From: Rosistilla oblonga
Lineage (GTDB): Bacteria > Planctomycetota > Planctomycetia > Pirellulales > Pirellulaceae
DNA length: 64,000 nt
Direction of reading: 5' to 3'
Assembly: GCF_007751715.1 (NCBI RefSeq)
Contig: NZ_CP036292.1
Span: forward strand, 1,488,001 to 1,552,000
Shown: piece by piece, positions 9,198 to 28,107 of the stretch
Position numbering within the stretch: position 1 is the first letter of the stretch
How the letters are laid out: every line of letters begins with the position of its first letter
Made by a program: the position numbers and the translations under genes
The notes under the pieces: generated by a model
The model's input: the letters and a program-made list of their open reading frames with translations, nothing else
Database searches by the model: none
What the model was told of the DNA's origin: nothing

Positions 9198-9219
9198 AGT
9201 ACCCCCGAAGGGATTCGAA
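9198..9219. repeat. attL: left copy of the 22-bp integration core
   Basis: The 22 bases here are identical to 25581-25602 (they begin AGTACCCCCGAAGGG). The right copy is the 3' end of tRNA-Arg(TCG), the usual site for tyrosine-recombinase integration. The two copies bound the 16.4-kb element. Confidence 0.92.
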
Positions 9220-9544
9220 GAATCAAGCGAATCGCCGGGTTAAACCGCAGTCGCAAGTCCCGGCGGTGCCGCTGGCGGTGTCATCCCTGCAGCAAGACGC
9301 CTTGGCAGCTGAACTTCTCTCAATCTGGCAATCGCTAGACCACCCCGCCCGCGACGACTTGCTTGCCGTCGCCCGTGGCCTGATCGCCGCAAGGCAGATC
9401 CCTGAACCAGAGGCCCAGGATCGCCCCAGGATCGCACCGAAGGGGCCGACGCGACAATCGAGACGCAAGGCAAGTTCTGCAGCGTCACACGCTAAACCGG
9501 ACAACACCAACAAGCGGAAGACGGACGAACATGGAAGTGATTGA
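9218..9544 (+). CDS. Detached integrase C-terminal coding segment (joined to the integrase in the excised circle)
   Basis: This frame runs through the att core in the same phase as the recombinase at the other end of the element. In a circle formed by recombination at the cores, codon 428 of the recombinase would be followed by this segment, adding 108 residues. The segment has a helical part (DALAAELLSIWQSLDHPARD DLLAVARGL) and a basic, disordered end. The helical part resembles C-terminal tails I associate with planctomycete recombinases. In the integrated state it could start at GTG 9278 as an 88-aa protein, or be silent. Its end overlaps the next gene by 14 bp. Confidence 0.65.
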   Translation, partial: KNQANRRVKPQSQVPAVPLAVSSLQQDALAAELLSIWQSLDHPARDDLLAVARGLIAARQIPEPEAQDRPRIAPKGPTRQSRRKASSAASHAKPDNTNKRKTDEHGSD

Positions 9545-9851
9545 AGATTGGATTGATTCGGAAATTAAGCGGGAGATGGCAAGCTTTGGCCATCGCGGCC
9601 TGTCGGTCGAAGAGTCGGCCCGGCTGGTTTGTAGGTCGCCAGAGACAGTTGCGAAGTACCACGGCGGCTATTGCAAGCCGGTTTGGATTCCACTGCCTTC
9701 CGAGATCGCAGAGCGGGCTGCGGGGATCCGGCAACGCTGGGCGGAGGAGGAGCGACTTGCGCGAATGCAGGCGCCCGTCGATGTGGACTACGAACCGGCA
9801 GATTCATGCGGCACACGAAACGACGAAGGGAAGGTGAACACAAATGGATGA
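9531..9851 (+). CDS. Small element-encoded protein with a possible HTH
   Basis: 106 aa, acidic at the N-terminus. Residues 22-50 (HRGLSVEESARLVCRSPETVAKYHGGY) have the look of a helix-turn-helix of the kind that reads DNA in small phage regulators. The C-terminal end (VDVDYEPADSCG) is acidic. It overlaps the preceding frame by 14 bp and the following terminase-like gene by 8 bp, so these genes are probably translated together. No named family. Confidence 0.65.
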   Translation: MEVIEDWIDSEIKREMASFGHRGLSVEESARLVCRSPETVAKYHGGYCKPVWIPLPSEIAERAAGIRQRWAEEERLARMQAPVDVDYEPADSCGTRNDEGKVNTNG

Positions 9852-10637: not shown

Positions 10638-10735
10638 GATTTTCCGGGCCGTTCGTCGTGGCGGCAAATGAGCCTTGTTAGTTTTGGGGGAACAGTCGAC
10701 GGACGGGACGCAGCAACCAGGCGAGGATAGATCCA

Positions 10736-11344: not shown

Positions 11345-11418
11345 ACGATAGGGAGCAAGCAGAGACTCCTTGGTAACGTAATTTACAACCCGACCCGAAG
11401 AACGAAAGAATCAGTAAC

Positions 11419-11997: not shown

Positions 11998-12012
11998 CGA
12001 TTCGTGAGGAGC

Positions 12013-12069
12013 GGCCGCAGGCTGGACGGGGTTTCACTTGCCCCTGAAGGTCTGCGGCCCTCTTTTTTT
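12013..12069 (+). terminator. Rho-independent terminator or attenuator
   Basis: Arms GGCCGCAG and CTGCGGCC enclose a loop with a second small GGGG/CCCC stem, followed by a run of seven T. It lies between the coiled-coil gene and the next small gene, so it may terminate or partly attenuate the structural block. Confidence 0.75.
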
Positions 12070-12092
12070 GCAGCAACAACGAGACCGAGAAC

Positions 12093-12311
12093 ATGAACCC
12101 AACGATTGCCAAATTGACCCAAGCGGTTGACGACTTGCCCGAGGAACACGCTTGCGTTTTGCGGCCGATCGTCGCTGAGCTTGCGGAAGAAGACAAGCAG
12201 TTGGTTGACGCACTGGCTGACGTCACACTTGCGGGCCAACGCATGATGCACGAAACCCAGTCGGTTAAGCGTGAATTGGCAGCCGCAAACCGCAAGCTTG
12301 CCGGCCGATAA
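12093..12311 (+). CDS. Small helical element protein
   Basis: 72 aa, all helical and acidic in the first half (LTQAVDDLPEEHACVLRPIV AELAEEDKQLVD), basic at the end (AAANRKLAGR). It sits immediately upstream of the tape-measure-like gene, where phages commonly encode small tail-assembly chaperones, but that role is only positional. No family recognised. Confidence 0.5.
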   Translation: MNPTIAKLTQAVDDLPEEHACVLRPIVAELAEEDKQLVDALADVTLAGQRMMHETQSVKRELAAANRKLAGR

Positions 12312-12357
12312 GGCACCCGCCAAGCAAGACACAAGACTTTCAGCGAGGGATAGAGCA

Positions 12358-14208: not shown

Positions 14209-14352
14209 CGCCGGCCGCACTTTCGCGCTCAGTTCTGCTGTCCCGGTGGTTAGCCGAATGGATCTGCTGGAATACGATCTGTCTTGACTGACCTGCAAAT
14301 CTCAGCTAATTGTCGCAATCAGTTGCACGCGAAATTTGACTCGATTAGGATG

Positions 14353-14383
14353 AAAACACCCGCAGAGTGGGTCTCTGCGGGTG
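14353..14383 (-). terminator. Rho-independent terminator of the small minus-strand gene
   Basis: A perfect 11-bp stem CACCCGCAGAG/CTCTGCGGGTG with a 5-base loop, followed on the minus strand by TTTT. It lies 15 bp beyond the stop of the gene at 14399-14566. Confidence 0.85.
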
Positions 14384-14398
14384 CGATGTCAAGAAAAA

Positions 14399-14566
14399 CT
14401 ACTTTTTCTTGACCCAAAACATGAATGCCGCTTTACCGCATTCTTCAGCCCTCAACACTTTTCCGTTCCGAAGAGTGATGGTTTTGCTGAAGACCTGCTC
14501 GTAGCCCTCACGTTCTTCCTTTTTAGGTCGCACTTTCGACCCATCATTGCTGGACGTACTATCCAT
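14399..14566 (-). CDS. Small basic protein, unknown function
   Basis: 55 aa. A hydrophilic start (MDSTSSNDGSKVRPKKEERE) precedes a short beta-like segment (FSKTITLRNGKVLRAEECGK). The ATG at 14566 has a strong ribosome-binding site, GGAAGGAAG, and the gene has its own terminator, so it is likely real. It is the only minus-strand gene besides the exonuclease inside the element, suggesting independent expression in the integrated state. No family recognised. Confidence 0.6.
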   Translation of the reverse strand: MDSTSSNDGSKVRPKKEEREGYEQVFSKTITLRNGKVLRAEECGKAAFMFWVKKK

Positions 14567-14714
14567 TTGAACTTCCTTCCGTAAACACGGCTGCATGCCG
14601 AAGTGTTGTCCAAACTAGCACGCGTACGTGTGGTACCTAGTTTGGTGTGGGTTGGCACGCGAACGCCACACGAACATTGTTACCGAAAACCCAATCTTAG
14701 CCAACAAGTGTTTC

Positions 14715-14939
14715 ATGGTTGAACTTCATCAAGCGTACTTTTGGGACTGTCCAGACTGTGGCCGTGAGAACTTCTGCCGTGGAATCGTGCCTGAGTTTTC
14801 CCCGGAGGAATTGGAAGAACTCAGGGCTGACCATGGCGTCCAACCGTGGGAAACCGGGAATTTCGTCATGCGGCCTAATTCCGTAACCTGCAAGCATTGC
14901 GAACTGAAATTTTCCGTTTTAAGCCTTAAAGATGCTTGA
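14715..14939 (+). CDS. Small zinc-ribbon protein
   Basis: 74 aa with one CPDC pair (FWDCPDCGRENFCRG) and one CKHC pair (SVTCKHCELKFSV) separated by 42 residues, giving a four-cysteine zinc site. The C-terminal half resembles small zinc-ribbon proteins widespread in planctomycete genomes. ATG 14715 is chosen because the upstream frame from 14628 is not protein-like. It faces the minus-strand gene and is followed by a terminator at 15017. Confidence 0.55.
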   Translation: MVELHQAYFWDCPDCGRENFCRGIVPEFSPEELEELRADHGVQPWETGNFVMRPNSVTCKHCELKFSVLSLKDA

Positions 14940-15404
14940 CACGATTTGACGATGCGGTTGATTCGTAATAAGATTCCTTCGCCTTCCAAGTAAACACGGC
15001 AAGGTAATAAGTTACAGGGTCAAGCTCGTTGGTACCGAGCTTGGCCCGTTTTTGTTGGTATTTTGCTTAACTGTATCGACTTGCCGTGATTCGTTGGGGC
15101 GAGATTCGCTGTTAGAGTCGCGAATTGGCTGGCTTCGTAAACGAGCCACGGCGGATTAGCGACTCAACTGGCAGCCAACGCCGAGGCCAAGAAGCCGGCC
15201 CCCTCATTCACTGGACGTCGCGATGAAGATTCTTGTGTCCAGCGTTGTGCGATTGCGTTCCCTGTAAATCTACCTGGATTGCACGTCAACATGCTAGCTA
15301 GCATTCTGCAGAGAGATCGATGCCCATCCTGGGCTGAAAAAAACATCGACGAGATCCCAGGAATACCTGCCATACTTTTGACGGTTCGACGCATTAGCAA
15401 GTAG
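14940..15404. other. Gene-free stretch with terminator and decayed sequence
   Basis: Beyond the terminator at 15017-15053 no gene is supported. A 14-bp palindrome ATGCTAGCTAGCAT lies at 15291-15304. The sequence up to the in-frame TAG at 15402 may be the decayed 5' part of the ParB-like remnant that follows, but I cannot trace it reliably. Confidence 0.4.
15017..15053 (+). terminator. Rho-independent terminator
   Basis: Arms GGGTCAAGCTCG and CGAGCTTGGCCC with a short loop and a following GTTTTTG. It closes the small zinc-ribbon gene's transcript. Confidence 0.8.
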
Positions 15405-15605
15405 CGTGCTCGCGATCTTTACGACCAGCGGGCGAAGGAGCGGATGCTTGCCGGTAAGAAACAGGACCCTGTGGAAGATCTTCCACAGGGTCCGACTAAA
15501 GCCCGCGACGAAGTCGGCAAGGTCTTCGGCGTGTCCGGCCGCTTGGTCGATCACGTCAAGCGAGTCAGATTGCCCGAAGTTCCTTCAGACGAAAAAAGCA
15601 ACGCA
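15405..15605 (+). pseudogene. ParB-like protein remnant 1
   Basis: After an in-frame TAG (15402) the frame reads ARDLYDQRAKERMLAGKKQD ... ARDEVGKVFGVSGRLVDHVK, the central HTH part of ParB-like nuclease/partition-type proteins that planctomycete elements often carry. The start and the C-terminal part are missing, and the 3' end runs into the convergent exonuclease gene. It aligns with the second remnant at 16258-16740 (AREIYDARAKERQRAAGG ... DARDAAGK). A perfect 30-bp palindrome interrupts the linker. Confidence 0.6.
15464..15493. repeat. Perfect 30-bp palindrome
   Basis: Half-site GGACCCTGTGGAAGA is followed directly by its exact reverse complement, without spacer. It lies in the ParB-like remnant. 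No T-run follows, so it is not a typical terminator. Confidence 0.9.
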
Positions 15606-16134
15606 TGCACGCCAGGCAATCGCTTGACGCATCGTGGGCGTTGTCAAACTCCGACTGAAACAACTTTGCGTGAAGTTCATCAAGCTTGGGCCACTTAAAG
15701 CCACGGTGTGACGGGATGCGGCAGAAGTCGACGCTTTCCTTCATCGTGCATAGGAGGGGTTTTCGACGAAGCGGGTTTGGTATGCCAATGCGGGCACATT
15801 CTGCCCCGATTATGTTTGTATCGAAATCTACATTGTGAGCAACGACAGTTTTGGCGCTCGCAACGGCAGCAAGAAACGAATCGAGGATCGGCCGAAGCGG
15901 GCGGCCGTTTTCGCGTGCAAACGCAGTGGTGATTCCATGCACGCGTGTCGCCCCTGAATCAATCTTAAAGCCATCTGGCCGAATCAAATGATTCTCCAGC
16001 GGCTTAACCGTGTCGCCTGATTCCGCGATAACCCAAGCGAGCTGGACCACGCGTGGCCAATTGTTAGTGTCTGATTCATCCGCGTAGAAGTTTCGGGGCA
16101 GGCCCGACGTTTCGGTGTCAAAAAACAGATACAT
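15565..16134 (-). CDS. DnaQ-like 3'-5' exonuclease (DEDDh)
   Basis: 189 aa. All three exonuclease motifs are visible: ExoI FFDTETSG near the start, ExoII HNVDFDTNII around residues 100-110, and ExoIII HDASSDC near residue 170 (HxxxxD, the DEDDh subtype). Such proteins are stand-alone proofreading or RNase T-like enzymes, often on phages. ATG 16134 is preferred because AAGGGG lies six bases upstream; ATG 16149 would add five residues. It is inserted, in opposite orientation, between two ParB-like remnants. Confidence 0.85.
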   Translation of the reverse strand: MYLFFDTETSGLPRNFYADESDTNNWPRVVQLAWVIAESGDTVKPLENHLIRPDGFKIDSGATRVHGITTAFARENGRPLRPILDSFLAAVASAKTVVAHNVDFDTNIIGAECARIGIPNPLRRKPLLCTMKESVDFCRIPSHRGFKWPKLDELHAKLFQSEFDNAHDASSDCLACMRCFFRLKELRAI

Positions 16135-16257
16135 GTTGGCCCCTTCCATTCCAGAGCGGAGTCGACCAACCGGCCTGCAATTTGGCCAACATGATCGATT
16201 GTTGAATTAGTAGCTTCGGTAGATGTTTTATCCGCACACGGAGTGCGTTGGCAATAG

Positions 16258-16740
16258 TCGCGAGGCAAGCCTGGCGAGCACCGCCGCCACATGACACCAT
16301 CGCAGCGGGCTATGTGCGCGGCTAAGGCTCGGGAGATTTACGACGCGAGGGCGAAGGAACGGCAGCGGGCCGCTGGTGGAAACCACGCAGCAAAAGCGGT
16401 TCCGGAAAATTTACCGGAACCGAAAAGGGACGCCCGCGACGCTGCCGGCAAGTCGGTCGAAATTGCAACGCGAACAGCCGACACCGCCAGCCGCAACCGC
16501 TCCCAAGTGCCGAAACAATCCCAAAAGCAGACGCAATTTGTTAGCCAACCCAAGGTGCCAGCGGACAAGCTTTGGGGCCACCGATTTTCTGGAGGTGGAT
16601 TTGCCGAATTGCAGAGAATTGCTTTTCGTGGCGTCGCTTTGTGCCGATCCTTTACGAGTCGTCTGCCGAAAGCATCCCGAGGCCGAATCGAAATGTTTGC
16701 TACTCAACAAGCCGCCGGGGCACAGAGCCGAATCAGATGA
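16258..16740 (+). pseudogene. ParB-like protein remnant 2
   Basis: From 16258 the frame begins after a TAG and reads RRHMTPSQRAMCAAKAREIY then DLPEPK-like and DARDAAGKSVEIA segments, the middle of ParB-like proteins. After that the expected helix-turn-helix continuation is lost and the frame becomes low-complexity (RSQVPKQSQKQTQ). An ATG at 16291 could give a 149-aa product, but loss of the nuclease and HTH parts argues for decay. It may be the paralogue or other half of remnant 1. Confidence 0.5.
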
Positions 16741-16863
16741 CGAAACGATTGGGGGCCAAGGCAGCAGTGCTTCTAGTCGCCCCATTCCTCACTCTGAGCG
16801 CAACGCGTCTGTTATCGGGGCATTCGCACGAAAAACGCAAATCTATACCTGGAACCAATAACA

Positions 16864-17064
16864 ATGCCATTCAACGTAACGCAAGCAGCACGCCAACTGG
16901 GTGTTTCTAACGAAACCGTTCGCGTCGCAATTCGCGCAGGTCGATTGAAAGCCCGCTGTAATGGAAGTGGGAAAATCCGTCAGCATTTCATCATCGACGA
17001 AGCGGATCTTGAGGAGTTCAAGGCGGCCACCTTGTACGTCCCCGAGCCTGCCGCGTGGCGGTAA
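16864..17064 (+). CDS. Excisionase/MerR-like HTH protein
   Basis: 66 aa. The reading FNVTQAARQLGVSNETVRVA followed by IRAGRLKARCNGSGKIRQHF and IDEADLEEF is the classic helix-turn-helix plus wing of excisionase and MerR-like proteins. Such proteins bend DNA at att sites or regulate. It is one of three candidate Xis/AlpA-like proteins in the element, so which one controls excision cannot be decided. Paired inverted repeats lie 170-225 bp downstream. Confidence 0.75.
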   Translation: MPFNVTQAARQLGVSNETVRVAIRAGRLKARCNGSGKIRQHFIIDEADLEEFKAATLYVPEPAAWR

Positions 17065-17597
17065 TTCGGCATGCTAACGCTCCCCCGTCGCAATGCGGCA
17101 AAGGCGAGAAAGACTTGCAGGCAATCGAGTTAAACAATCGACACAGCGATCATCGATCACTCCCGAAAACAGGTGCTATTTGTTCGCTGGCACCTAGGGG
17201 CTGGCGTGCAAATTTTCGGTACCGGTTGGCTGGAAGTGTCCGCAATTCCGGACATCCCCCGCCGAGAATGTCCGGCGTGCTGGACAAACGCCGGGAAACC
17301 GATTCCGCAATTGTATTGACCCCTCGCGACCGCATCGGTTATAAATCGGGCGTCGGCCCCTCGCCTAGAAAACGAGACCGACCAGCCAAAGCCATCTCAC
17401 ATCGGCCAAGGCTGCAAACTGTATTACCTTCAAAACATGTGGTGCAAGCGTCCCGATGAGTAGCAGCATTCCCAAGCGTCGATCGGCATAGGCCGTTAGC
17501 AAGGTCTGTTGGCTGGGGCCGTAATACTCCCCGGTTTTCTACTGCTTATCGGGGCGCCTGCACGTACCGACCTAACGGTCGAAAGGCAGGCACCCTT
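17065..17597. promoter_or_regulatory. 533-bp non-coding leader region
   Basis: No convincing gene. It contains the TGTCCG dyads and, just before the next ATG, two hairpins: CCCCG/CGGGG (17529-17554) and a nested GCCTGC/GCAGGC stem around CGACC/GGTCG (17556-17591). A frame at 17055-17459 lacks protein-like composition. The region probably holds promoter and control sites for the genes from 17598 on; an origin is also possible. Confidence 0.4.
17237..17286. promoter_or_regulatory. Two dyads of a TGTCCG/CGGACA motif, possible operators
   Basis: The first dyad is TGTCCG-6 bp-CGGACA (17237-17254), the second TGTCCGG-5 bp-CTGGACA (17269-17286). The same half-site, as CGGACAA, is repeated four times at 20819-20855. 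This suggests binding sites for one element regulator, but no protein has been assigned. Confidence 0.45.
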
Positions 17598-18065
17598 ATG
17601 TCTACCGTCCAAACCTCTCTGCATGAGAACCGGCTTTCCCGATTGACCGAAAGCGATTGGGTTTCCGGCCCCATCGCACCGGCACCTAAGCCGGTTCACC
17701 CCAAGCCCCACTGGATCAAGGGCCAAGACTTCGCCGACCAGTTGGCATGTTTTGCCATGCTCCTGGACGTCTCGAAACGCCAGTCCGAAGAGGACGCCAA
17801 GCGGACCATTTTTGCGTCGCTCGAGTCCATCGTCCTGCTGTGGTGGCGAGTCGAAGTCCGCAAACCGAACGTTTCACCGCTGCCCGCGAACTGCCCCAAA
17901 AAGTTGTTTGATCACGGGTGCCTTCGCAAAGCCGAGCTGCATGATCTGCAAGTTGCGTTCAAGCCCGCTGCGACGGCAACGCACCTGTTTCAGGCTGCTG
18001 ACTCGTGTCTCAAGACGATGGAACTGCAATTCCAGGACCTTTTGGGCGGGGGGCTGTCGCAATGA
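17598..18065 (+). CDS. Hypothetical element protein
   Basis: 155 aa, mostly helical with a central segment FADQLACFAMLLDVSKRQSE EDAKRTIFASLESIVLLWWR. No signal peptide. It opens a block of three genes with overlapping ends (TGA/ATG at 18062-18065, then a GTG at 18411). It may belong to the replication or regulation module that follows, but no family is recognised. Confidence 0.6.
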   Translation: MSTVQTSLHENRLSRLTESDWVSGPIAPAPKPVHPKPHWIKGQDFADQLACFAMLLDVSKRQSEEDAKRTIFASLESIVLLWWRVEVRKPNVSPLPANCPKKLFDHGCLRKAELHDLQVAFKPAATATHLFQAADSCLKTMELQFQDLLGGGLSQ

Positions 18066-18418
18066 GCACCACAACCGAAATCGCCGACGAGTCACGTGCC
18101 AACGACCGCCGAAGCGAGGCGAAATCGCTCATAGCCAGAGGAATGGACCAAACCGAAGCCTGCTGCCTGGCCGGATTCCGCGATCGGCCTGGCGAACGAC
18201 TGAAACCGGATCCCAACACCGGCTGGATCCCAACACCGGATGAGATCCTATCCGAAGCTGCGAAGATCAGGTTGGAGTGGCCGGACGGGCTGGAACCATC
18301 CGGCCTCCAGCTGGCTGGCATTCGCAAGAATCGCGACACCCGCGCGGCACGTTGCTCGCGAACTGTTTCGATGCGGGAGCTTTCGGTCGACAAGCGATGG
18401 GAGGACGACAGTGAATAA
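18062..18418 (+). CDS. Hypothetical element protein
   Basis: 118 aa; ATG 18062 overlaps the previous stop by ATGA, favouring translational coupling. The middle (EAKSLIARGMDQTEACCLAG FRDRPGERL) suggests a small helix-turn-helix-like head, and the C-terminal basic part (IRKNRDTRAARCSRTVSMRE) could contact DNA. Its stop lies eight bases into the next gene. Function unknown. Confidence 0.55.
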   Translation: MSTTTEIADESRANDRRSEAKSLIARGMDQTEACCLAGFRDRPGERLKPDPNTGWIPTPDEILSEAAKIRLEWPDGLEPSGLQLAGIRKNRDTRAARCSRTVSMRELSVDKRWEDDSE

Positions 18419-19358
18419 CCGCCAAGCCGTCTTGGACCGCTTCGACACGACGCCGGCCGATGCTATCCACCTTTGCGACCTGCAGCCGCTGCGCGACGGC
18501 ACGCGACCGATAAGCGTGTCGATGCAACGCCGGGTCCTGCAATTCTTCGGTGGGTTCAAATCCGATCGATGTTGGTTGCCGATCGCGGAGATTGCTAAAC
18601 AGCTTTGCCACGATGAACGCACGGTGCGGGCTGCAATTCGCGTTCTGGTTGCCGAGCAACTGTTGGTCGAAAGCGGACATCGCAACCGACGAACAAGGGC
18701 CGTCAACTGGGGCGAGATCGGACTTCGTATCCACCGCTCCGAATGTGGCCCGCTACCCTGTTCAACCGGGCAGGATGCCCAACCGGGCACCGGGCAATTG
18801 ATGGCGGGCTGCCCTGATGAACCGGGCAGTAGTGCCCGCCCTATAACAGAACCAAGAGAACAATCGTCACCATCATCAAGGCGAGAGCCGAGACCGACGA
18901 CGGCGAAGATCTTGGGTTCTGATTGGGAGCCCGCGGTCGAAGCGTTGCAGGGTGTTGGGCTAGGTCAGATCCCCAAAGCGATCGCGATGGCCAACGCCGC
19001 CGGGATGGCGCCCGATGAACTGGTCGACCTGGCCGCGATCGTCCGGCACGATTCCAGGCTGTCGGCTGGATCGATCATCGCAAGGTTGCGGGATGGCTGT
19101 TGGCCGGTCGACGACGTGGTCGGCATCGAAGGCGTTCAGCAAGCCCGACAGCGCCGCGCTGAGAAGATCCGCCAAGCACGCCACGATGCAGCAGAGACAG
19201 CCGAGAATCGACCCCAGCGTTGGATAATCGACGGTCTGGTCGGTCGAGATTTGCGAAAGGCCGGATTGATTGATCTGGCGGCCGATGCGGAGCTGCAAGC
19301 CGCCAACCGGATGGATGAGGTTGACCGGTTGCGGTGCGATCGGCTGGCGTTGGCGTGA
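18411..19358 (+). CDS. Winged-helix replication-type protein
   Basis: 315 aa starting at GTG 18411, which overlaps the previous gene by eight bases. Residues about 38-90 (QRRVLQFFGGFKSDRCWLPI AEIAKQLCHDERTVRAAIRV) form a winged helix like those in primosomal and plasmid replication proteins. A linker rich in Pro, Ser and Arg follows, then a helical C-terminal domain. Replication initiator or primosome loader is plausible because a structured non-coding region follows directly, but this is inference. Confidence 0.6.
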   Translation: MNNRQAVLDRFDTTPADAIHLCDLQPLRDGTRPISVSMQRRVLQFFGGFKSDRCWLPIAEIAKQLCHDERTVRAAIRVLVAEQLLVESGHRNRRTRAVNWGEIGLRIHRSECGPLPCSTGQDAQPGTGQLMAGCPDEPGSSARPITEPREQSSPSSRREPRPTTAKILGSDWEPAVEALQGVGLGQIPKAIAMANAAGMAPDELVDLAAIVRHDSRLSAGSIIARLRDGCWPVDDVVGIEGVQQARQRRAEKIRQARHDAAETAENRPQRWIIDGLVGRDLRKAGLIDLAADAELQAANRMDEVDRLRCDRLALA

Positions 19359-19374
19359 TCGCTTCCTGGTGGAC

Positions 19375-19410
19375 AAACGGGCCAGACCGATCGCGGATTC
19401 TGGCCCGTTT
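19375..19410 (+). terminator. Rho-independent terminator
   Basis: A perfect 12-bp stem AAACGGGCCAGA/TCTGGCCCGTTT begins 17 bp after the stop of the winged-helix gene. The T-run is short (GTTTAC). Confidence 0.75.
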
Positions 19411-19555
19411 ACATTGTGGATAACTGGCATCGTTCGATGTTGAAAACGCGAACGGAAACGGGAACGAATCGCCGATGAAAACCGCTCGAAAACCGGCTCA
19501 ATCCGCCCCGGTGAAACCGCCCGAAAAATGCCACCCTAGAAAAACGCGGCAAGTG

Positions 19556-19739
19556 CTTTTCTTTATAGGAGAAACGCACCGAACCGCCTCGATCGGCCCG
19601 AAAAAAGACCCACTTTCTCTTATAAAGAAAAAGGTACTACCCCGGGTGGGGGTGGGGCTCCGCGGGTCTTTGTCCCGAGAGCAAAACGCGCACACTTTTT
19701 TTGAAAAAAAGGGGACCACCCCCCCCCACCCAACCGGGG
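19556..19739. other. Highly structured non-coding region, candidate origin or RNA
   Basis: Two successive inverted repeats: A-T-rich arms CTTTTCTTTATAGGAGAAA (19556) and TTTCTCTTATAAAGAAAAAG (19614), then G/C homopolymer arms CCCCGGGTGGGGGTGGGG (19640) and the C-rich run ending AACCGGGG (19716-19739). Between them is T7GA7. The whole spacer 19411-19962 has no supported gene. Such a layout fits a replication origin or a folded RNA; nothing in the sequence decides. Confidence 0.55.
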
Positions 19740-19962
19740 TGCAGGCATGGTTTTGACGCCGAAAAACGTAGGCGCGTAGGCAATTGGCGACGCGTCATTA
19801 ACAATGGAAGTTGCGGCCGTGGTTGGTCGCAAAATGCCCCGGCCGAACCAGCTGGGGCGATCTTGGGTAGGCCGCTAGCTCCGGCCACACAAGGCGCAGC
19901 TGCAGGGTTTCACCTTTGCCCAGCAGCTGCGCTTTGGCCCTTCTCACACGAAAGGTGAATCT

Positions 19963-20838
19963 ATGTTCGACTTGATACCGAGGCAGGGCGTTTCCGAGCA
20001 TGCCAAGATTTTGCGGAAGATCGGAACCGACTGGAGCCCCACTACCCCTTGGGCCCGATCTGAAATTTCAAAGTCTGCACTGACTGAGCTATGCCGTGCC
20101 GGTTTGATTTTCGCGAGGCTAGATTATGGTTTCCGCCTTGCTGATGGAGGGGCGTTTCGCTGGCGGCTAAAACTGACTGGAGACCGCGGTGTCACTGGAT
20201 TCTTGCGAAAGCAAATGGAAACCGCCGCCGCCGGCCGAACTGTTGAGCAGCGGAGTTTTGGTGAAATCGAAGAGGTTTGCTTGACGGAACTAGGAAGCTC
20301 CGCCAAGTCAGCTTCGGACTGGCAACGCAAGGTCTCGAGGTTTGTCGAACTGAGACGAGAACAAGGCTGGGCCGACGGGGTCGTTCGGATCGAAAGGGAG
20401 CAACAAACATCCCCGCAAGCCGCTTCCGTCAACATTGCGGCAAGCCAAGCAAACGCCGCGGCGAATGCGAGCGTAGGGGACATACACGTCACCGTTGTTA
20501 ATGAGATCCAACCACCGGTCGTTGCGTCGCAAGGGACGACGGTTGCCGAGCCTGCCGAAGAAGAACCAGAAGGAGATCGCGGGCCGAGTGACTACGAATA
20601 CTGGTGTTATCTGCTATACGGCGTCGCAGAGGCCTACCTGATCGAAAAGCACGGTTCCAGCCGCCCCCGACAGTCGGAGGTTTACGGGGTGCTGAAAACA
20701 TCCTACGGGAACGAGATAGAAGCCCCTGGTGTTCCTGACAACTTCAAGATGCCAAACACAGAAGACGCATTCCTGAAGGCCTACCGTCGTGGCAAAAAGT
20801 CGCTTTCAAGAGCCAGGCCGGACAATTCGGACAAATAG
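19963..20838 (+). CDS. Hypothetical element protein with HTH-like ends
   Basis: 291 aa. The N-terminal 70 residues look like a winged helix (SEHAKILRKIGTDWSPTTPW ... SALTELCRAGLIFARLDYGF). The middle is Ala/Asn/Pro-rich and probably disordered (ASQANAAANASVGDIHV). The C-terminal 80 residues have another small helical domain (YEYWCYLLYGVAEAYLIEKH). It stands alone between the structured region and a terminator. Its last codons contain CGGACAA repeats that continue past the stop. Function unknown. Confidence 0.6.
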   Translation: MFDLIPRQGVSEHAKILRKIGTDWSPTTPWARSEISKSALTELCRAGLIFARLDYGFRLADGGAFRWRLKLTGDRGVTGFLRKQMETAAAGRTVEQRSFGEIEEVCLTELGSSAKSASDWQRKVSRFVELRREQGWADGVVRIEREQQTSPQAASVNIAASQANAAANASVGDIHVTVVNEIQPPVVASQGTTVAEPAEEEPEGDRGPSDYEYWCYLLYGVAEAYLIEKHGSSRPRQSEVYGVLKTSYGNEIEAPGVPDNFKMPNTEDAFLKAYRRGKKSLSRARPDNSDK

Positions 20839-20855
20839 CGGACAAGATCGGACAA
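20819..20855. promoter_or_regulatory. Four CGGACAA iterons
   Basis: CGGACAA starts at 20819, 20828, 20839 and 20849, in the same orientation with 9-11-bp spacing, about one helical turn. It spans the end of the 291-aa gene and precedes the operon starting at 20990. The half-site is shared with the dyads at 17237-17286. Confidence 0.55.
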
Positions 20856-20880
20856 CTGAAAGAAAACGTTAAGTTTTTCA

Positions 20881-20905
20881 AGCCTGCAATTTGCGGGCTT
20901 TTTTT
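20881..20905 (+). terminator. Rho-independent terminator
   Basis: Stem AGCCTGCA/TGCGGGCT (one mismatch) with a 3-base loop and eight T. It separates the 291-aa gene from the AlpA-like operon. Confidence 0.85.
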
Positions 20906-20989
20906 GTACCTGCCACCAAGACTCGGACGAATCGCATCGCTCGCCGCCCCATTGTGAACACCTCTTGTTTTTTGCAATGGGAGCAAAAC

Positions 20990-21205
20990 ATGGTAACGAG
21001 CGAATTGCTAACAGGCGCCGAGGTCCGCCAGCTGGTCGGAGTGTCTGCGCCAATCTGGATGGAGTTGATCGAGACCCAGCGCGTCCCGCACCCCGTCGAC
21101 GTGGGCGGCCGGTTGAAGTGGCGACGGTCCGACATCCTCGAATGGGTGTCATCTATGAAGGCTGTGGGAATCTTCAATGCGAAGAAGCTGGAGGTGCCCG
21201 CGTGA
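20990..21205 (+). CDS. AlpA/excisionase-like HTH protein
   Basis: 71 aa with SELLTGAEVRQLVGVSAPIW, RVPHPVDVGGRLKWRRSDIL and EWVSSMKAVG, the signature order of AlpA-type DNA-binding proteins (helix-turn-helix, then a basic wing and final helix). AlpA activates excision or integrase expression in P4-like elements. ATG 20990 is chosen over the upstream frame from 20891, which would cross the terminator. It is first in a chain of overlapping genes running to the helicase. Confidence 0.75.
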   Translation: MVTSELLTGAEVRQLVGVSAPIWMELIETQRVPHPVDVGGRLKWRRSDILEWVSSMKAVGIFNAKKLEVPA

Positions 21206-21483
21206 CTCGTGAGATCTATCTACGCGGCATCGATCCCGACCAATTCCGGGCCGAAATCGTCCGCGACGTCATCGAGGCTATCGGCCCTCTGTTGGCCGAC
21301 AATCGCGAGCCGCGACTAGTCGACCGCCAACGCATGGCGGACCTGTTGGGCGTGTCGGTACCGCATCTCGACACGCTGGTCCGCGATGGCGTGATCCCGA
21401 GCAAACTGGTCGGCAAGCGTCGACTGTTCGATCCGGGGCCCGTGATCGCCGCGTTACCCACCGAGGGAGGCGTCGTCCAGTGA
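21202..21483 (+). CDS. HTH domain protein (excisionase-like)
   Basis: 93 aa from GTG 21202, overlapping the previous stop (GTGA). Residues 48-85 (RLVDRQRMADLLGVSVPHLD TLVRDGVIPSKLVGKRRLFD) are a helix-turn-helix with wing of the excisionase type. A second such gene directly after AlpA-like suggests a two-protein control of excision or replication, but this is inference. Confidence 0.7.
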   Translation: MTREIYLRGIDPDQFRAEIVRDVIEAIGPLLADNREPRLVDRQRMADLLGVSVPHLDTLVRDGVIPSKLVGKRRLFDPGPVIAALPTEGGVVQ

Positions 21484-21827
21484 GCATTCAACAAACCGAT
21501 CTGTTTGGCGCTTTCGACCGGGCCGCGATGGTCCCCGGCAACACAGAATCGAAGAAGACCCGCCGAGCGGCCTACGACGCCGCAAAACCCAAGGTGTCGG
21601 CCCGATCGCTGAGAGCGTTGGCTTTCCTCCACGATCGCGGATCACATGGCGCGACGCGCGAAGAGATCGCGATCGCACTGGGGACGGTACACCATGCGGT
21701 GTCATCGATCACGGGGCCACTAATCAAGCTGGGCTTGGCATCCGAGACCACGGGACGACGCGAGACATCGACCGGGACACGAGCTGTTGTCCTGGTCGCG
21801 ACATCGCCGCGGGAGGTACTGGAATGA
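21480..21827 (+). CDS. Winged-helix protein
   Basis: 115 aa from GTG 21480 (GTGA overlap). The region SLRALAFLHDRGSHGATREE IAIALGTVHHAVSSITGPLI KLGLASET is a MarR-like winged helix; the start QQTDLFGAFDRA is short and polar. It may regulate the operon or act in replication initiation. No ligand-binding part is seen. Confidence 0.65.
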   Translation: MSIQQTDLFGAFDRAAMVPGNTESKKTRRAAYDAAKPKVSARSLRALAFLHDRGSHGATREEIAIALGTVHHAVSSITGPLIKLGLASETTGRRETSTGTRAVVLVATSPREVLE

Positions 21828-21985
21828 TCGATCGACACACTATCTGGCGGCAGCGGTCGATCGAGATCGTTGCGCGACGATGCGGACTATCGCACCTTCC
21901 GCAACGCGATCAATTGCAGTTGTTACGCCAGCTGGTCGCCGAACGGCGGGCCGAAGTGGCCCGGAAATTGGAGGCGACGGAGTGA
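21824..21985 (+). CDS. Very small helical protein
   Basis: 53 aa, encoded between GGAGG-preceded ATG 21824 and TGA 21985, overlapping both neighbours by four bases. Sequence is helical and basic (LSHLPQRDQLQLLRQLVAER). Conservation of the overlap pattern is the main reason to accept it. Function unknown. Confidence 0.6.
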   Translation: MIDRHTIWRQRSIEIVARRCGLSHLPQRDQLQLLRQLVAERRAEVARKLEATE

Positions 21986-22800
21986 GCGGATTTATCAAGC
22001 TGCATCGCAAAATCGTTGACTCCGAGGTGTTCGCTGATGAGGGGATGTTTCACACCTGGACGATGCTTCTGCTGAAGTGCAACTGGAAGCCCGCGAAGTT
22101 CAAGGGCCGAACGGTGAAGCCTGGACAGATGGTCTTTGCTTGGAGGGAATTACCAGAGCGATTGCAGGGGCCGATGGTGAAGCCGTTGAGCATCAACACG
22201 CTACGAAAGCGGCTTCAGGCAATGGAATCGATTGGGATGTTGACGGTCGAGAACTGGGGCCGATGCACCGCGATCACAATCGTGAATTGGGGAAAGTATC
22301 AATCCGACATCGTGTCAAATTCTGACACGACAGACGGTCAAACAACGCAATCTACGGAAACCACCGTATCAAATTCTGACACGATAGCTGACACGATAGC
22401 TGACACGATAGCTGACACGATAGCTGACACAGATAGAAGAAGGTTAAAGAAGGGGAAGAATCCCCCTAAGTCCCCCAAGGGGGATCGGGGTGGTTTTGAT
22501 CCTTTGAAGATCGAGATTCCAAGCAGCCTGGACAGCCCTGCGTTCCGTGCTGCATGGACTGAGTGGTGCCAGCATCGCGTCGAGCGCAAGGCCAAGCTGA
22601 CAAAGACAGCCGCCGGAAAGCAGATCAAGCAGTTGGCCACCTGGGGGCACCAGCGGGCTGTCGCCGCGATCGATCACAGCGTACGCAGCGGATGGCAGGG
22701 CATCTTTGAGCCAAGCGGAAAATCGACGAACGCTCCTGAATCTGCAGGCCAGCACGAAATCACCCAACCACAACGACGCCAACGGAGGGCACCCGCATGA
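21982..22800 (+). CDS. Replisome organiser-like replication protein
   Basis: 272 aa from GTG 21982. The N-terminal part GFIKLHRKIVDSEVFADEGM followed by WTMLLLKCNWKPAKFKG is the pattern of phage replisome-organiser N-terminal domains. A winged helix (SINTLRKRLQAMESIGMLTV), a repetitive linker (DTIA repeats) and a DnaD-like helical end (AWTEWCQHRVERKAKLTKTA) follow. It is directly upstream of and overlaps the DnaB-like helicase, so it probably helps load it at the element's origin. Confidence 0.75.
   Translation: MSGFIKLHRKIVDSEVFADEGMFHTWTMLLLKCNWKPAKFKGRTVKPGQMVFAWRELPERLQGPMVKPLSINTLRKRLQAMESIGMLTVENWGRCTAITIVNWGKYQSDIVSNSDTTDGQTTQSTETTVSNSDTIADTIADTIADTIADTDRRRLKKGKNPPKSPKGDRGGFDPLKIEIPSSLDSPAFRAAWTEWCQHRVERKAKLTKTAAGKQIKQLATWGHQRAVAAIDHSVRSGWQGIFEPSGKSTNAPESAGQHEITQPQRRQRRAPA
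22378..22431 (+). repeat. 12-bp coding tandem repeat
   Basis: Four perfect copies of GACACGATAGCT and a partial fifth, encoding repeated Asp-Thr-Ile-Ala in the linker of the replication protein. The flank TCAAATTCTGACACGA also occurs 54 bp upstream (about 22316). Confidence 0.95.
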
Positions 22801-24194
22801 CATCCGCCGCCGAAGAGATCGCCGAATTCGAAGAAATGTTGACCGCTGCAATCTTGGTCGACGCATCCGCCGGAGGCAACGCCATCGACGAAGTGCGGTC
22901 GAAGATCACGAGCCGAGACTTCACGCTGCCAGCGGCCCGTCGATTGTTTGCAGCGTTCGAGGACATCCGCGATAGCGGCGGGGTGCCTGACATCCTGCCC
23001 GTGGTTCAGCACCTGCGGGATTCCAACGGCGAGACAGTCAGCACGCGATACCTCCGCGAATTGGCCGGCAAGGGGCTTGCACACAACATCGACTACTATG
23101 TCGGCAAGATCGTCGATCGGGTTTGCCACGAACGGCACCGCAAGTTTCACGCGGACTTAGGGGGGCTGATCGATGGCGGCGCATCGCGGCCGGAGTTGCT
23201 GGAATTCATCGAACGATTTTCGACCAGCCTAACCGGCGGCATCTCACAGTCGCAGATCCGCAACGCCTACGACATCGGACAAAGCGTCCTAGCGAACCTC
23301 AGAGACGCCAAGCAGACGGGACGGGAACGCGGTATACGAACTGGCATTGTGCCGCTGGACGAACACACGAATGGGCTGCAGCCGTCCACGTTGACAACGA
23401 TCGCCGCGAGGACATCGGTTGGCAAGTCGGCACTTGGCCTGCAGATCGCGGACCATGCTTGCCTAGCTGGCTATCACGTCCTGTATTGCTCGATGGAAAT
23501 GTCGGGGGAAGAACTGATGGGCCGCAACGTTTCCAACGATTGCGGAATCGATTCTTCTCTGATCGCCGGTTGTGCGCTCGATGGCTCGATGGTGACCGAC
23601 AGCGAGTTGTCAGAGATTGCTGTGAGCATTGAGCGGTACCGAGAAAAGCACTTGCTGATCTGGGACCCGCCGAGTCGGTCTATCACAGTGTCCGACATCC
23701 GCCGCCGTGCTAAGGCGATGCACATCGACCGCCCGTTGTCGCTTTGCGTCATCGACTACATCGACTTGGTTAAACCAGCCGACCGACAAACCGGCCGACG
23801 CGACATCGAGCTTGGCGACATCGCCAAAGGGCTCAAGAGCCTGGCAACGGAATTGAAGATCCCAGTTGTTGTGCTCGCGCAAATCAACCGCGCCGGAACC
23901 AACAGAGATGGCTCGAAAAACGAAGCCAAGCCGGATTTGCAACACATCGCCGACAGCGATCAGGTGGCGAGAGACTCCGACAACGTTTGGATTTTACATC
24001 GACCTCGACTCGATGAACCAGCGACAAGCCTGTTGATCCGAAAACAGCGAGGGGCACCAGTGTGCGAAATACCGCTCCACATGGCTTTACCCAAAACGCA
24101 GTTCACAGAACCGCCGATCAGCAGCCACACGAATTTCAACAAAGACCTACCCAGCGACCAATTGGATTACGACACGCTGGTTCGACGCGACTAG
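22797..24194 (+). CDS. DnaB-like replicative helicase
   Basis: 465 aa. The N-terminal helical domain (residues 1-110) matches DnaB-N; the RecA-like core has Walker A ARTSVGKSA (Lys210), Walker B LCVIDYIDLV, and the LAQINR segment. It unwinds DNA ahead of the fork; it is usually hexameric. ATG 22797 overlaps the loader-like gene's stop (ATGA). The C-terminal arginine-finger region (LLIRKQRGAP) is present, so it appears intact. It allows the element to replicate on its own. Confidence 0.9.
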   Translation: MTSAAEEIAEFEEMLTAAILVDASAGGNAIDEVRSKITSRDFTLPAARRLFAAFEDIRDSGGVPDILPVVQHLRDSNGETVSTRYLRELAGKGLAHNIDYYVGKIVDRVCHERHRKFHADLGGLIDGGASRPELLEFIERFSTSLTGGISQSQIRNAYDIGQSVLANLRDAKQTGRERGIRTGIVPLDEHTNGLQPSTLTTIAARTSVGKSALGLQIADHACLAGYHVLYCSMEMSGEELMGRNVSNDCGIDSSLIAGCALDGSMVTDSELSEIAVSIERYREKHLLIWDPPSRSITVSDIRRRAKAMHIDRPLSLCVIDYIDLVKPADRQTGRRDIELGDIAKGLKSLATELKIPVVVLAQINRAGTNRDGSKNEAKPDLQHIADSDQVARDSDNVWILHRPRLDEPATSLLIRKQRGAPVCEIPLHMALPKTQFTEPPISSHTNFNKDLPSDQLDYDTLVRRD

Positions 24195-24316
24195 ACCGAC
24201 CCAACCAAATCACGTTACGATCAATTTGCCAACGGCTAGGCTGATCCCCGAAAACCGCAATCCTGAGCGGCTGCCGCTGGTGTTTTTTCAGGACGATCAC
24301 AGGAAATCGATTCACG

Positions 24317-25609
24317 ATGGCATCACTTCGCAAGGAATCCGACCGAGGCCGAACAGGCTGGCGACTGCAGTTTCGGCAAGCTGGCAAACGTCGATCGCTT
24401 TGGCTTGGCGACATGAGCAAACGGGCGGCCGATGGTGTCGCGCGGCACGTCGATGAACTGGCCAACGCCACCGCCGCGAATGTTTCACCCTCTGCAGACA
24501 CGCTTCGATGGGCCGCCGGTCTCGACGGCCGGATCTATGAGACGTTGCACCGGTGGGGAATGGTCGAGGCTCGGGTTGCTGTCGATTCAGATTCCCGCAT
24601 GTGCGCTACGTTCTTCCGCCGTTGGATCGCCACGAACTGCACCACCGCCCGCACGGCCAACAACTACGAACAAGCGGTGACGTGGTTCTGCAAGCACTTC
24701 GGGGACCGGCGGACGCTGTCGTCGATCACCCCAGCGGAGTTTGGCGAGTGGTTCCGATGGATGCGGCACGCCGACCGACTGGCAGAGTCGACGGCAAATA
24801 AGCACGCCAAGCGGATCAGGACGCTGTTCAAGGCGGCAATCGCTTCTCGACTCCTTACCGAGAACCCTGGCACGGGGACCAAGATCGGCGACGAAGTAAA
24901 CCGCGACCGGGACCACTACGTCGACCGCGAAAGCGCCGCCACGATCATCGACAAATGTGACATCGAATGGGCCGCCATCTTTGGCCTATCGCGTTTCGCT
25001 GGTTTGCGTTGTCCATCGGAGGTCACCCGGTTGAAGTGGTCGGACGTCGATTGGGAGGCCGGCCGTCTGCGGATCGATTCACGGAAAACCGGCCTGCGGT
25101 TCTGTCCGCTCTTCCCCGAGTTGCGGCCGCTACTTGATGCCGCGTGGGATCTGGCACCCGAGAGGGCCGTCTACGTCATCCGCAACCACCGGGACGCCGA
25201 AGCCAACTTGCGTTCCCAGCTGAACCGGATCATCGAATCCGCGGGCCTGGTCCCCTGGCCTAAGGCGTTCGTCAACTTGCGAGCATCATGCCGGACGGAC
25301 CTGGAGCAAAGGTTTCCGGGGCATGTTTGCGATGCCTGGTTGGGGCACTCTTCGAAGGTGGCCGCCAAGCATTACCTGCAAGTCCGACCCTCCGATTGGG
25401 CCGACGCGTTAGCAAGCGGCGCGCCAAATCTCGATAAATCGGCGGTGTCATTATCTGACGGCGGTGTCATCGGCGGTGACATAGAGGGCGATGATCTGGC
25501 ATTTGCCAGCGGAGAAGATACGAAAAAACCCAGCAAAACCGGGCCGGTTTGTGCTGGGTATAGTCGTGAATGCTCTAATGAGTACCCCCGAAGGGATTCG
25601 AACCCCTAA
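24317..25609 (+). CDS. Tyrosine recombinase (integrase) of the element
   Basis: 430 aa. An N-terminal SAM-like core-binding domain (about residues 95-190) is followed by the catalytic domain with Arg231 (GLRCPSEV), Lys257 (SRKTG), Arg322 (NLRAS), His344 (LGHSS) and nucleophile Tyr353 (KHYLQV). The first His of the HxxR box is replaced by Val319; variation there is common in this group by my recollection. The last nine codons are inside the att core and tRNA gene, and the stop 25607-25609 is chromosomal. In the excised circle the frame continues into 9218-9544. A tRNA terminator lies on the opposite strand at 25523-25559. Confidence 0.92.
   Translation: MASLRKESDRGRTGWRLQFRQAGKRRSLWLGDMSKRAADGVARHVDELANATAANVSPSADTLRWAAGLDGRIYETLHRWGMVEARVAVDSDSRMCATFFRRWIATNCTTARTANNYEQAVTWFCKHFGDRRTLSSITPAEFGEWFRWMRHADRLAESTANKHAKRIRTLFKAAIASRLLTENPGTGTKIGDEVNRDRDHYVDRESAATIIDKCDIEWAAIFGLSRFAGLRCPSEVTRLKWSDVDWEAGRLRIDSRKTGLRFCPLFPELRPLLDAAWDLAPERAVYVIRNHRDAEANLRSQLNRIIESAGLVPWPKAFVNLRASCRTDLEQRFPGHVCDAWLGHSSKVAAKHYLQVRPSDWADALASGAPNLDKSAVSLSDGGVIGGDIEGDDLAFASGEDTKKPSKTGPVCAGYSRECSNEYPRRDSNP
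25523..25559 (-). terminator. Rho-independent terminator supplied by the element to the tRNA gene
   Basis: Stem ACCCAGCA/TGCTGGGT with an inner AAACCGG/CCGGTTT stem and six T on the minus strand. It lies about 25 bp beyond the tRNA 3' end, inside the integrase gene, on the opposite strand. Confidence 0.85.
25581..25602. repeat. attR: right copy of the 22-bp integration core
   Basis: Identical to 9198-9219. It covers the 3' end of tRNA-Arg (T-arm 3' strand, acceptor 3' strand and discriminator), so integration leaves the tRNA intact. Confidence 0.93.
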
Positions 25610-25656
25610 CCCCCGGTTCCGAAGACCGGTGCTCTATCCAGTTGAGCTACGGAGGC
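25583..25656 (-). tRNA. tRNA-Arg (anticodon TCG)
   Basis: 74 nt folding as a cloverleaf: acceptor GCCTCCG/CGGGGGT, D stem GCTC/GAGC, anticodon stem CCGGT/ACCGG with loop CTTCGGA (anticodon TCG), T arm AGGGG-TTCGAAT-CCCTT, discriminator A. G1-T72 and T4-G69 are wobble pairs; they lie in the part supplied by the element's core, so the original gene may have differed only outside it. CCA is not encoded. It is the integration site of the element. Confidence 0.95.
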
Positions 25657-25873
25657 ATCAGCACCGAAGTGCAATACCGTTGGCTGGCACAGAGCGATTT
25701 CGCTGCCGGTGCCAGACTGCCCAAATCTTACAAGATTTTCGCAGGCGTGCTAGTCCCGCAGGGGACAAATTTGCCGCCCCGCCAGTTTTGGCCCGCTATA
25801 TGCCCTTTTCCTCTACTGACCGCTACAGGGTGAATGCCAAACGTTAACGCCCCAGTCTGCCGCATCGACGCCG

Positions 25874-27856
25874 TTATTGAAGCCAGGCGTCGGGATCGGC
25901 ATCGCTCGGCATCCGCCAATCGCCCCGCGGCGACAGGCTGACGCTGCCCACTTTGGGGCCGTCGGGGACACATGTCCGTTTGAACTGATTCGCAAAGAAC
26001 CGCTTGAAAAAGGTCTGCATCGTTTCGGCGAGCGTCGCGTCGTCGTAGGGCTGCGAAAAATTCGTCTGCTGGGCCAGCCAGAGGATCTTTTCGGGCGAAT
26101 AGCCGTTGCGGATGAAGTGGAACAAAAAGAAGTCGTGCAGTTCGTACGCTCCGATCGTCGCTTCGGTGCTCTGACGGATCTCCCCGTCTTCGGTGGGGGG
26201 CATCAATTCGGGAGAGATCACCGCGTCGGCGATTTGGTGCAGCGTGGTCCGGACCGATTCGTCGAAGTGGTGGTCGCCGGCAAATCGGACCAGGAAGCGG
26301 ACCAGCGTTTTTGGGACCGATGTGTTGACGTTGTACATCGACATGTGATCGCCGTTGTAGGTCGACCATCCCAACGCTTGTTCCGACAGATCGCCGGTTC
26401 CCAAGACAAAACCGCGACTCATCAGCACAAAGGTCCGAATCCGCGCCTGGATGTTTTCGAACACCAAGTCTTTGGCATCGTTGGGCGTTTTTATCAGCTG
26501 CTGCTGCAGCGTTTCGACGTCCATCTTTTCGGCATCGATTCCCAGCGGCTGATGCTGCAGCGATTGAAACGCTTGCAGGCACAACTGGCGAATGTCGATC
26601 GTCTCCCGCGTCACGCCCAGTTGTTGCATCAACCGATCGGCACTCTCGCGAGTCTGGTCGGTGGTTCCAAAGCCGGGCATCGTGATCCCGTGAATGCGCG
26701 AGGTCGGCCAGCCGTATCGCTGGCACATCTTCGCGGCAACGACCAACGCCAGGGTGCTGTCGAGGCCGCCGGAGACGCCGATGAAGAGGGGCATGTTTTC
26801 GGGCAGCTGACGAATTCGCTGGGCCAAGCCGGCCGATTGGATCTCAAAAATCTCGCTGCAGCGGTCGGCAAGTGTATTGGGATCGCTAGGGACAAACGGC
26901 CGCGGCGCGATGTCGCGCTGCAGTTCGCGATCGGGAGTGTGGGTGAGCGAAAAATCGATCTGGCGATAATCGCGCGGTAGCGAGCCACGGGCGTCGTCGA
27001 ACGAACCGATCGTGCGGCGATCGTGCCCCAGTTTTTGTAGGTCAACGTCGACGGTGGCCGATGTCGCTCCCTGCCACGCCGGTTGGCCATCGCCCACGCG
27101 GCGCGAGTGGCTCAAGACGACTCCGTTTTCAGCGATCATGCAGTGCGCACCAAAGACGACATCGGTTGTCGATTCGGTCGGGCCGGCGCCGGCGTAAGCG
27201 TAGGCGGCGATGCAGCGTCCCGATTGCGATTTGACGAGATCGGTTCGCCAGCTGGCTTTGCCAACCGTTTCGGTGCTGGCGGACAGGTTTAATAGAATGT
27301 TAGCACCGGCGACAGCCATCAAGCCGCTGGGAGGATTGGGAGTCCAGAGATCCTCGCAGATCTCGATTCCCACGACTGCATCGCCCGATCGGAACAGCAG
27401 ATCGATGCCAAAGGGAATCGATTGGTTGTCGACGGTAATCGTCGCCGGTTCGCTGCCGTCGGCGGCGCGAAACCACCGCGCCTCGTAAAACTCTTTGTAG
27501 TTCGGCAGGAACTGTTTCGGAACGATTCCCAACAGTTGGCCGTTGTCGATCGCGGCGGCGCAGTTGTACAGGCTGCCCGCGACGCTGACCGGCACGCCGA
27601 CGACAACTAATTGATCGCGACCCGCCGATGCCGCGACGATCTGCTGCAAAGCCGCCATCGCCGCGTCGATCAATTGTTGTTGTCCAAACAGATCGGCGGC
27701 GGTGTAGCCGGTCAGGGAGAGTTCGGGAAAGAGGACGATGTCCGATTCGCCGTACTGTTGCAGCAGTTCCTCGATCTCGGCTGCGTTTTTACGAGGTGCA
27801 CCAACATGAACTCGCGGGCTTGCGGCGGTGATGCGGACATATCCGTGGGGGTGCAT
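25874..27856 (-). CDS. nadE: Glutamine-dependent NAD+ synthetase
   Basis: 660 aa with two domains. The N-terminal nitrilase-like glutaminase has the Glu-Lys-Cys triad: Glu45 in FPELSLTGY, Lys121 in PNYKEFYE and Cys167 in GIEICEDLW. The C-terminal synthetase has the PP-loop SGGLDS at 362-367. It converts nicotinic acid adenine dinucleotide to NAD+ with ATP and glutamine, the last step of NAD synthesis. Full length for the bacterial two-domain type. ATG 27856 is used. It ends 218 bp beyond the tRNA-Arg gene. Confidence 0.97.
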   Translation of the reverse strand: MHPHGYVRITAASPRVHVGAPRKNAAEIEELLQQYGESDIVLFPELSLTGYTAADLFGQQQLIDAAMAALQQIVAASAGRDQLVVVGVPVSVAGSLYNCAAAIDNGQLLGIVPKQFLPNYKEFYEARWFRAADGSEPATITVDNQSIPFGIDLLFRSGDAVVGIEICEDLWTPNPPSGLMAVAGANILLNLSASTETVGKASWRTDLVKSQSGRCIAAYAYAGAGPTESTTDVVFGAHCMIAENGVVLSHSRRVGDGQPAWQGATSATVDVDLQKLGHDRRTIGSFDDARGSLPRDYRQIDFSLTHTPDRELQRDIAPRPFVPSDPNTLADRCSEIFEIQSAGLAQRIRQLPENMPLFIGVSGGLDSTLALVVAAKMCQRYGWPTSRIHGITMPGFGTTDQTRESADRLMQQLGVTRETIDIRQLCLQAFQSLQHQPLGIDAEKMDVETLQQQLIKTPNDAKDLVFENIQARIRTFVLMSRGFVLGTGDLSEQALGWSTYNGDHMSMYNVNTSVPKTLVRFLVRFAGDHHFDESVRTTLHQIADAVISPELMPPTEDGEIRQSTEATIGAYELHDFFLFHFIRNGYSPEKILWLAQQTNFSQPYDDATLAETMQTFFKRFFANQFKRTCVPDGPKVGSVSLSPRGDWRMPSDADPDAWLQ

Positions 27857-28107
27857 GAGCGGGACGATCCTTGTTAGGCACAGGTTTTTGCAACGTGATT
27901 TGTAGTATACTCGCCACCGCCGCGGATCGGCGAGAGCGCTGAAGCGGGCGACGGGGCGCGTTGGGGTTGGCGTTTAGGTCGATCGGTCGTAGAACGCTAA
28001 CGCTCGTTTTGCGAAGAACCGGACGCTAACGCGTGGCGGCTGATCGTTCCAATTGAATCACTGAATATTGCTGAAGCGGGCGATGTGATACCGGAGAGAT
28101 ATGCCCG

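Follow-up and report, generated by a model that had tools for sequence, protein, structure and literature searches.

What does integration do to an integrase whose own reading frame runs through the attachment site? In the 64,000-nucleotide stretch of the Rosistilla oblonga chromosome analyzed here (the window), a 16,383-bp element occupies a tRNA-Arg(tcg) gene and is bounded by two 22-bp cores, which are direct repeats with 100% identity and lie 16,383 bp apart, a multiple of three (Table 1). It was originally predicted that the integrase frame crosses the right core and terminates in the tRNA gene, and that the left core is read in the same phase by a second open frame, such that the circular form would specify a longer protein than the integrated form. 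The coordinates bear this out: the stop codon (TAA, 25607-25609) falls inside the tRNA gene, the frame through the left core is in integrase phase and open to position 9544, and joining at the cores yields 428 + 108 = 536 codons in the circular form versus 430 amino acids (aa) in the integrated one.

Table 1. Positions, within the window, of the element's cores, target gene, integrase-related frames, and candidate sites
Feature	Position	Strand	Remarks
Left core	9198..9219	.	22 bp; repeats the tRNA 3′ end in truncated form
Tail frame	9218..9544	+	108 codons plus stop; joins the integrase in frame in the predicted circular form
Two GGCGGTGnC repeats (9262, 9274)	9262..9282	.	candidate arm-type sites, in frame after the left core
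Conserved helical hairpin codons	9299..9391	+	approximate, counted off an alignment; fold taken from a relative
Next gene after the tail frame	9531..9851	+	14-nt overlap with the tail frame
Small-terminase-like gene	9844-10401		phrog_57
Excisionase-like HTH protein	20891..21205	+	phrog_66, E 2.8e-4
Integrase gene as integrated	24317..25609	+	430 aa; final codons from tRNA antisense
Three GGCGGTGnC repeats (25441, 25460, 25472)	25441..25480	.	candidate arm-type sites, in frame before the right core
Right core	25581..25602	.	22 bp; tRNA-Arg 3′ end, within the integrase frame
Intact tRNA-Arg(tcg)	25582..25656	-	integration target

The borders of the element are supported by a genome of the same genus (G002) in which the site is empty: it holds a single core (1563420-1563441), its right flank matches window positions 25582-27900 at 98% over 2,319 bp, and its left flank matches the window only at its last 113 bp (9107-9219, 81%). 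The tRNA gene is intact, its 3′ end is repeated at the element's other flank, and the site is empty in this relative, features that together mark an element integrating at tRNA 3′ ends. Besides the integrase, the element carries a small-terminase-like gene, a DnaB helicase, DnaD/O-like replication genes, and an excisionase-like gene; no large terminase or capsid was detected among the 20 frames scanned in window positions 9198-25602. This gene content resembles that of a phage satellite. In a second genome of the genus (G001), the same tRNA-Arg site is occupied by a different element of ~37.6 kb (L317/L318).

The window integrase matches PF00589 at 32.6 bits (curated cut-off, 27.1) over residues 214-357, PF16795 (Phage_integr_3) is not among the six hits that it gives to Pfam with E ≤ 1, and the residues that we take to form its active site (R231, K257, R322, H352, and Y353) are invariant across 21 integrase sequences. 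In the structural model of the integrated form, order extends to about residue 366, and pLDDT is below 50 from residue 371 onward; from this model and the positions of the invariant residues, the recognized catalytic fold lies entirely upstream of the core. The AlphaFold model of an uninterrupted viral relative (L273) comprises a recombinase, a disordered stretch (residues 376-457), and a pair of helices spanning 457-474 and 477-492; block pLDDT values over residues 461-490 are 82, 95, and 90. This model was the sole Foldseek query, and its best solved matches include the Tn1549 and lambda integrases and XerA. Both models also contain a predicted N-terminal strand-strand-strand-helix unit, presumably the arm-binding domain. 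The likeness to the lambda and Tn1549 enzymes is one of fold: the attP of lambda lies outside the int coding sequence, whereas that of the planctomycete elements lies within the integrase frame. As to the segment joined on circularization, originally described as helical and then basic, the helical part fits the model of the relative, and the basic part is a peculiarity of the window: the last ~40 residues of its 108-aa tail, which are basic, correspond to nothing in the aligned tails of relatives, which are shorter (~62 aa, median of 47).

Is the frame across the core a property of this one element or of its relatives as well? Among 147 genomes searched, the integrase was found in 114, and the 108-aa tail was matched in 6 (including the window's own). 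In two of these (G014 and G087), the tail lies on the same contig and strand as the integrase, at the opposite end of the element, and the cores at the tRNA ends (15 bp at tRNA-Arg(tct) and 24 bp at tRNA-Lys(ctt), respectively) join the integrase in frame into the tail. G087 also has a longer repeat of 31 bp outside the tRNA end, where the join would be out of frame, and a third genome (G088) has the same design split over two contigs. A locus of Roseimaritima sediminicola JC651 (L192) has an integrase with 67% identity, likewise at tRNA-Arg(tcg). A seven-row tail profile found matches in 64 of the 241 genomes of the family; certain of the weaker ones are situated in seemingly unrelated proteins. 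Six tail-model matches (L135, L136, L137, L139, L141, and L142) were set aside as long open reading frames without an integrase, apparently unrelated.

We surveyed three sets of entries, all relatives of the window integrase, with one script, taking as the core the longest stretch shared at the tRNA 3′ end, irrespective of frame. Set T, picked by tail matches and including the window, has 37 entries (26 with a core, 8 lacking an integrase within reach, 2 lacking a tRNA call, and 1 cut). The other sets were picked by the integrase alone: set U has 20 entries (11 with a core, 7 without, and 2 without a tRNA), and set N has 80 named loci (14 with a core, 53 without, 10 without a tRNA, and 3 cut), for which the core search covered at most ~10 kb upstream. 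The resulting 51 rows were reduced to 48 elements by removing two set N duplicates of set T and one locus (L271) whose integrase frame is not open to its putative core; the 48 cover 18 kinds of tRNA and core lengths of 13 to 29 bp. At least 30 codons are open past the left core in 47 of the 48 (47/49 if L271 is counted as a failure), although these elements are related and hence do not constitute independent trials. Read-through of the core is not automatic, because the distant integrase of the G001 element (25 to 31% identity), at the same tRNA, stops before its core.

Two of the observations named at the outset as speaking against the original prediction were looked for. One of them, a lack of frame conservation across the core, is contradicted by the survey, in which conservation is the rule among close relatives. 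The other, the existence of homologues without the tail, is borne out: the frame of L122 stops at the left core (the sole exception among the 48 elements), the G001 element is without a tail, and among the 37 viral relatives, 12 are also without one, terminating no more than ~53 residues from the presumed catalytic Tyr. Furthermore, the frame of L091 is broken before the hairpin, and in L150 the integrase and tail are contiguous, with the frame broken between them; since the contig ends of L150 do not overlap, we do not claim it as a circle.

Beyond the left core, tails usually enter a helical segment of the form W..L....R..L, and a looser version of the pattern (W..L..R..L) occurs in 38 of 47 tails, compared with 20% of shuffled tails. 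A tail model trained on set T matched 13 of the 23 elements of sets U and N, which had been chosen by their integrase, with E < 0.05 and with the integrase phase always giving the best match (the remaining 10 gave no match), and 1 of 460 random control windows. Nonsynonymous divergence is lower than synonymous divergence (pN < pS) in all 34 tail pairs with at least 40% identity and in 857 of all 951 pairs, counts that protein-guided alignment biases in this direction. No Pfam family was assigned to four tails searched at E up to 10. A shorter tail of another kind, containing a PISA(E/D)LA segment, is common to two elements (L118 and L133), and more than one tail type therefore exists.

Among the 80 named genome loci, 65 have an integrase that ends in a called antisense tRNA. 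Because phage and plasmid records contained almost no relatives (one weak match and none, respectively), free forms were sought in metagenomic viral contigs, in which a single-sequence query recovered six weak loci and an alignment query recovered 37. In these 37 contigs, the integrase ends in a tRNA in 3 and at the contig end in 6. Several viral genes are uninterrupted: L273 crosses a core matching tRNA-Glu(ctc) at 21/22 positions and L291 one matching tRNA-Val(tac) at 20/22, both continuing into W-type tails; L292 (core, 20/22) and, less exactly, L272 (17/22) enter other tails; and L278/L280 and L300 have W-type tails with no clear core. One pair captures the two states together: L293, which is integrated at tRNA-Ser(gct), shares 83% identity over 411 residues with the free L296/L297. 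The similarity reaches as far as the core, and past it the free forms extend by 59 residues, including NAWPKLPDAIRAGSLSMV. Most of 20 integrase regions examined for uninterrupted tails, and mostly picked for their long open frames, end in a tRNA (L174, L188, and L189 are without a called tRNA, and L172 has no readable end). As read from these genes, both states, the tailed free form and the tail-less integrated form, occur among natural relatives. The claim that integration exchanges the C terminus of the integrase, with the circle encoding the longer protein, is well supported by the conservation of frame and tail, by the uninterrupted viral genes, and by the free/integrated pair.

The DNA on the two sides of the core is itself patterned. 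An exact repeat of at least 11 bp flanks the core on either side, within the reading frame, in 34 of the 48 elements, versus 2.5% of 959 controls; in these 34 elements, it begins 102 to 175 bp before the right core and 38 to 80 bp after the left core. We infer that these flanking repeats, like the in-frame repeats of the window, are arm-type sites of the integrase. In this arrangement, attP probably falls within the integrase gene, with the complete catalytic domain on one side of it and a C-terminal hairpin on the other.

The architecture, the conservation of the frame, and the conservation of the tail are evident in the sequences compared. We regard it as likely, overall, that attP lies in the integrase frame, that the free circle would supply the full-length enzyme, and that integration would remove the conserved hairpin. 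The free circle would encode a 536-aa integrase consisting of the catalytic domain, a disordered linker encoded by attP, and the hairpin. Recombination with the tRNA 3′ end would sever the hairpin, so that the integrated gene would specify the catalytic domain plus a few antisense-tRNA residues (430 aa) and the hairpin codons would be left headless at the other end of the element. The functional step is more tentative, at somewhat less than even odds: the hairpin would be used in the free state, most likely favoring or regulating integration; the tail-less integrase of the lysogen would be quieter or, together with an excisionase, biased toward excision; and the integrase gene itself would thereby record the integration state. 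Conserved though missing from the integrated gene, the hairpin must be of some use to the free element. We favor a part for it in integration, or in the direction of integration, because the catalytic fold needs nothing past the core and an excisionase-like gene is present. These elements may then possess bacterial self-recording integrases, whose gene carries attP and swaps a hairpin for antisense-tRNA residues, the long form integrating and the short one being dormant or excising, which we put forward as a possibility somewhat short of even. If true, the DNA itself would encode directionality or commitment, with no separate regulator, in planctomycete phages and satellites and at 18 or more kinds of tRNA.

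Alternatively, the hairpin could be an ordinary C terminus, with attP having come to rest in the flexible linker for the sake of compactness and the truncated enzyme working equally well, in which case there would be no switch. The linker is predicted to be disordered and its composition tracks the arm repeats, so a site there would cost little; however, the hairpin has been kept despite its absence from the integrated gene, and we consider this reading unlikely, if deserving of serious attention. Rather improbable is a suicide-like switch, in which the hairpin would be needed for all recombination, the integrated gene would encode an inactive integrase, and excision would depend on the full-length enzyme of a superinfecting or tandem element. 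Archaeal suicidal integrases operate in this manner, according to the passages devoted to them in a review (PMC8371274), and a tandem-like junction in Roseimaritima sediminicola (L144/L198), where the chromosome has an integrase fragment, core, and tail in unbroken succession directly left of another element, rebuilds the fused integrase end. Against such a switch, the whole recognized catalytic fold precedes the core, and the excisionase-like gene of the element would serve a resident integrase.

Very improbable is that the segment at the left end is a small gene of its own, agreeing in frame with the integrase by accident. The tail frame of the window overlaps the next gene, and some in-frame ATG, GTG, or TTG precedes the hairpin in 33 of 47 orphan tails; however, an in-frame ATG is present in only 16 of the 47 and a start with a Shine-Dalgarno (SD)-like 4-mer in 2 (planctomycetes may make little use of SD), the frame agrees with that of the integrase in 47/48 elements, and free contigs carry one continuous gene. 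A chance open frame across attP is scarcely credible: the two other phases do stay open for 40 codons or more in 9 and 3 of 26 elements (set T) and in 8 and 6 of 23 (sets U and N), but the integrase phase is open to this extent in 26/26 and 21/23, is the longest of the three in 23/26 and 17/23 (L271 kept), and is the phase in which tail homology is found, at a rate far above that of the random windows.

The preferred reading, in which integration trims a hairpin from an otherwise complete enzyme, has partial counterparts in known systems. In archaeal suicidal integrases (SSV, pTN3, and pT26-2 types), attP likewise lies inside a tyrosine integrase gene that is altered on integration at a tRNA, and the same passages of the review call self-disrupting recombinases exclusively archaeal (PMC8371274). 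The archaeal gene is divided, giving int(N) and a catalytic int(C), whereas the planctomycete catalytic domain stays whole and the C-terminal hairpin alone is lost; the archaeal type of separation between N-terminal and catalytic parts is not seen in the window, where the modeled fold of the integrated form is complete. The window integrase is, moreover, bacterial and of a Pfam family other than the Phage_integr_3 (PF16795) of the archaeal suicidal integrases. In mycobacteriophage BPs and its relatives, attP lies within the open reading frame of the repressor, the prophage form of which is shorter at its C terminus, and the segment lost is a degradation tag, as set out in the relevant part of PMC4557955. 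The likeness to integration-dependent immunity drawn in the original prediction is fair as an analogy and stops at the gene concerned: BPs alters its repressor and sheds a degradation tag, whereas the core of the window lies in the integrase frame, and planctomycete elements alter their integrase and shed a structured hairpin. A streptococcal element, IME_Spy2096_SNF2, is bacterial and has its recombination site inside its own integrase gene, but it uses a serine integrase at a protein gene, and the portion of the source that describes it mentions no tail (PMC5357655), in contrast to the conserved tail and tRNA target here. A partial literature search, extending to few subscription journals, found no description of a bacterial integrase with a conserved tail that is lost on integration.

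The planctomycete design is a distinct bacterial variant that resembles both the archaeal suicidal integrases and BPs immunity. In this bacterial set, integration changes the integrase but does not destroy it, and both states are seen in nature. The set also provides a ready system for asking whether the direction of recombination is governed by a C-terminal module. There is a warning here for annotation as well: the C termini of integrases from such prophages are partly antisense tRNA, and a real domain goes unannotated at the opposite end of the element.

Two further features of the window element concern replication-type genes. A protein resembling a DNA polymerase exonuclease subunit (phrog_192, E 1.2e-37) is encoded on the minus strand at 15565-16149, opposite to most element genes, and a 12-bp tandem repeat, CTGACACGATAG, at 22376-22435 within the DnaD-like gene possibly represents origin iterons.
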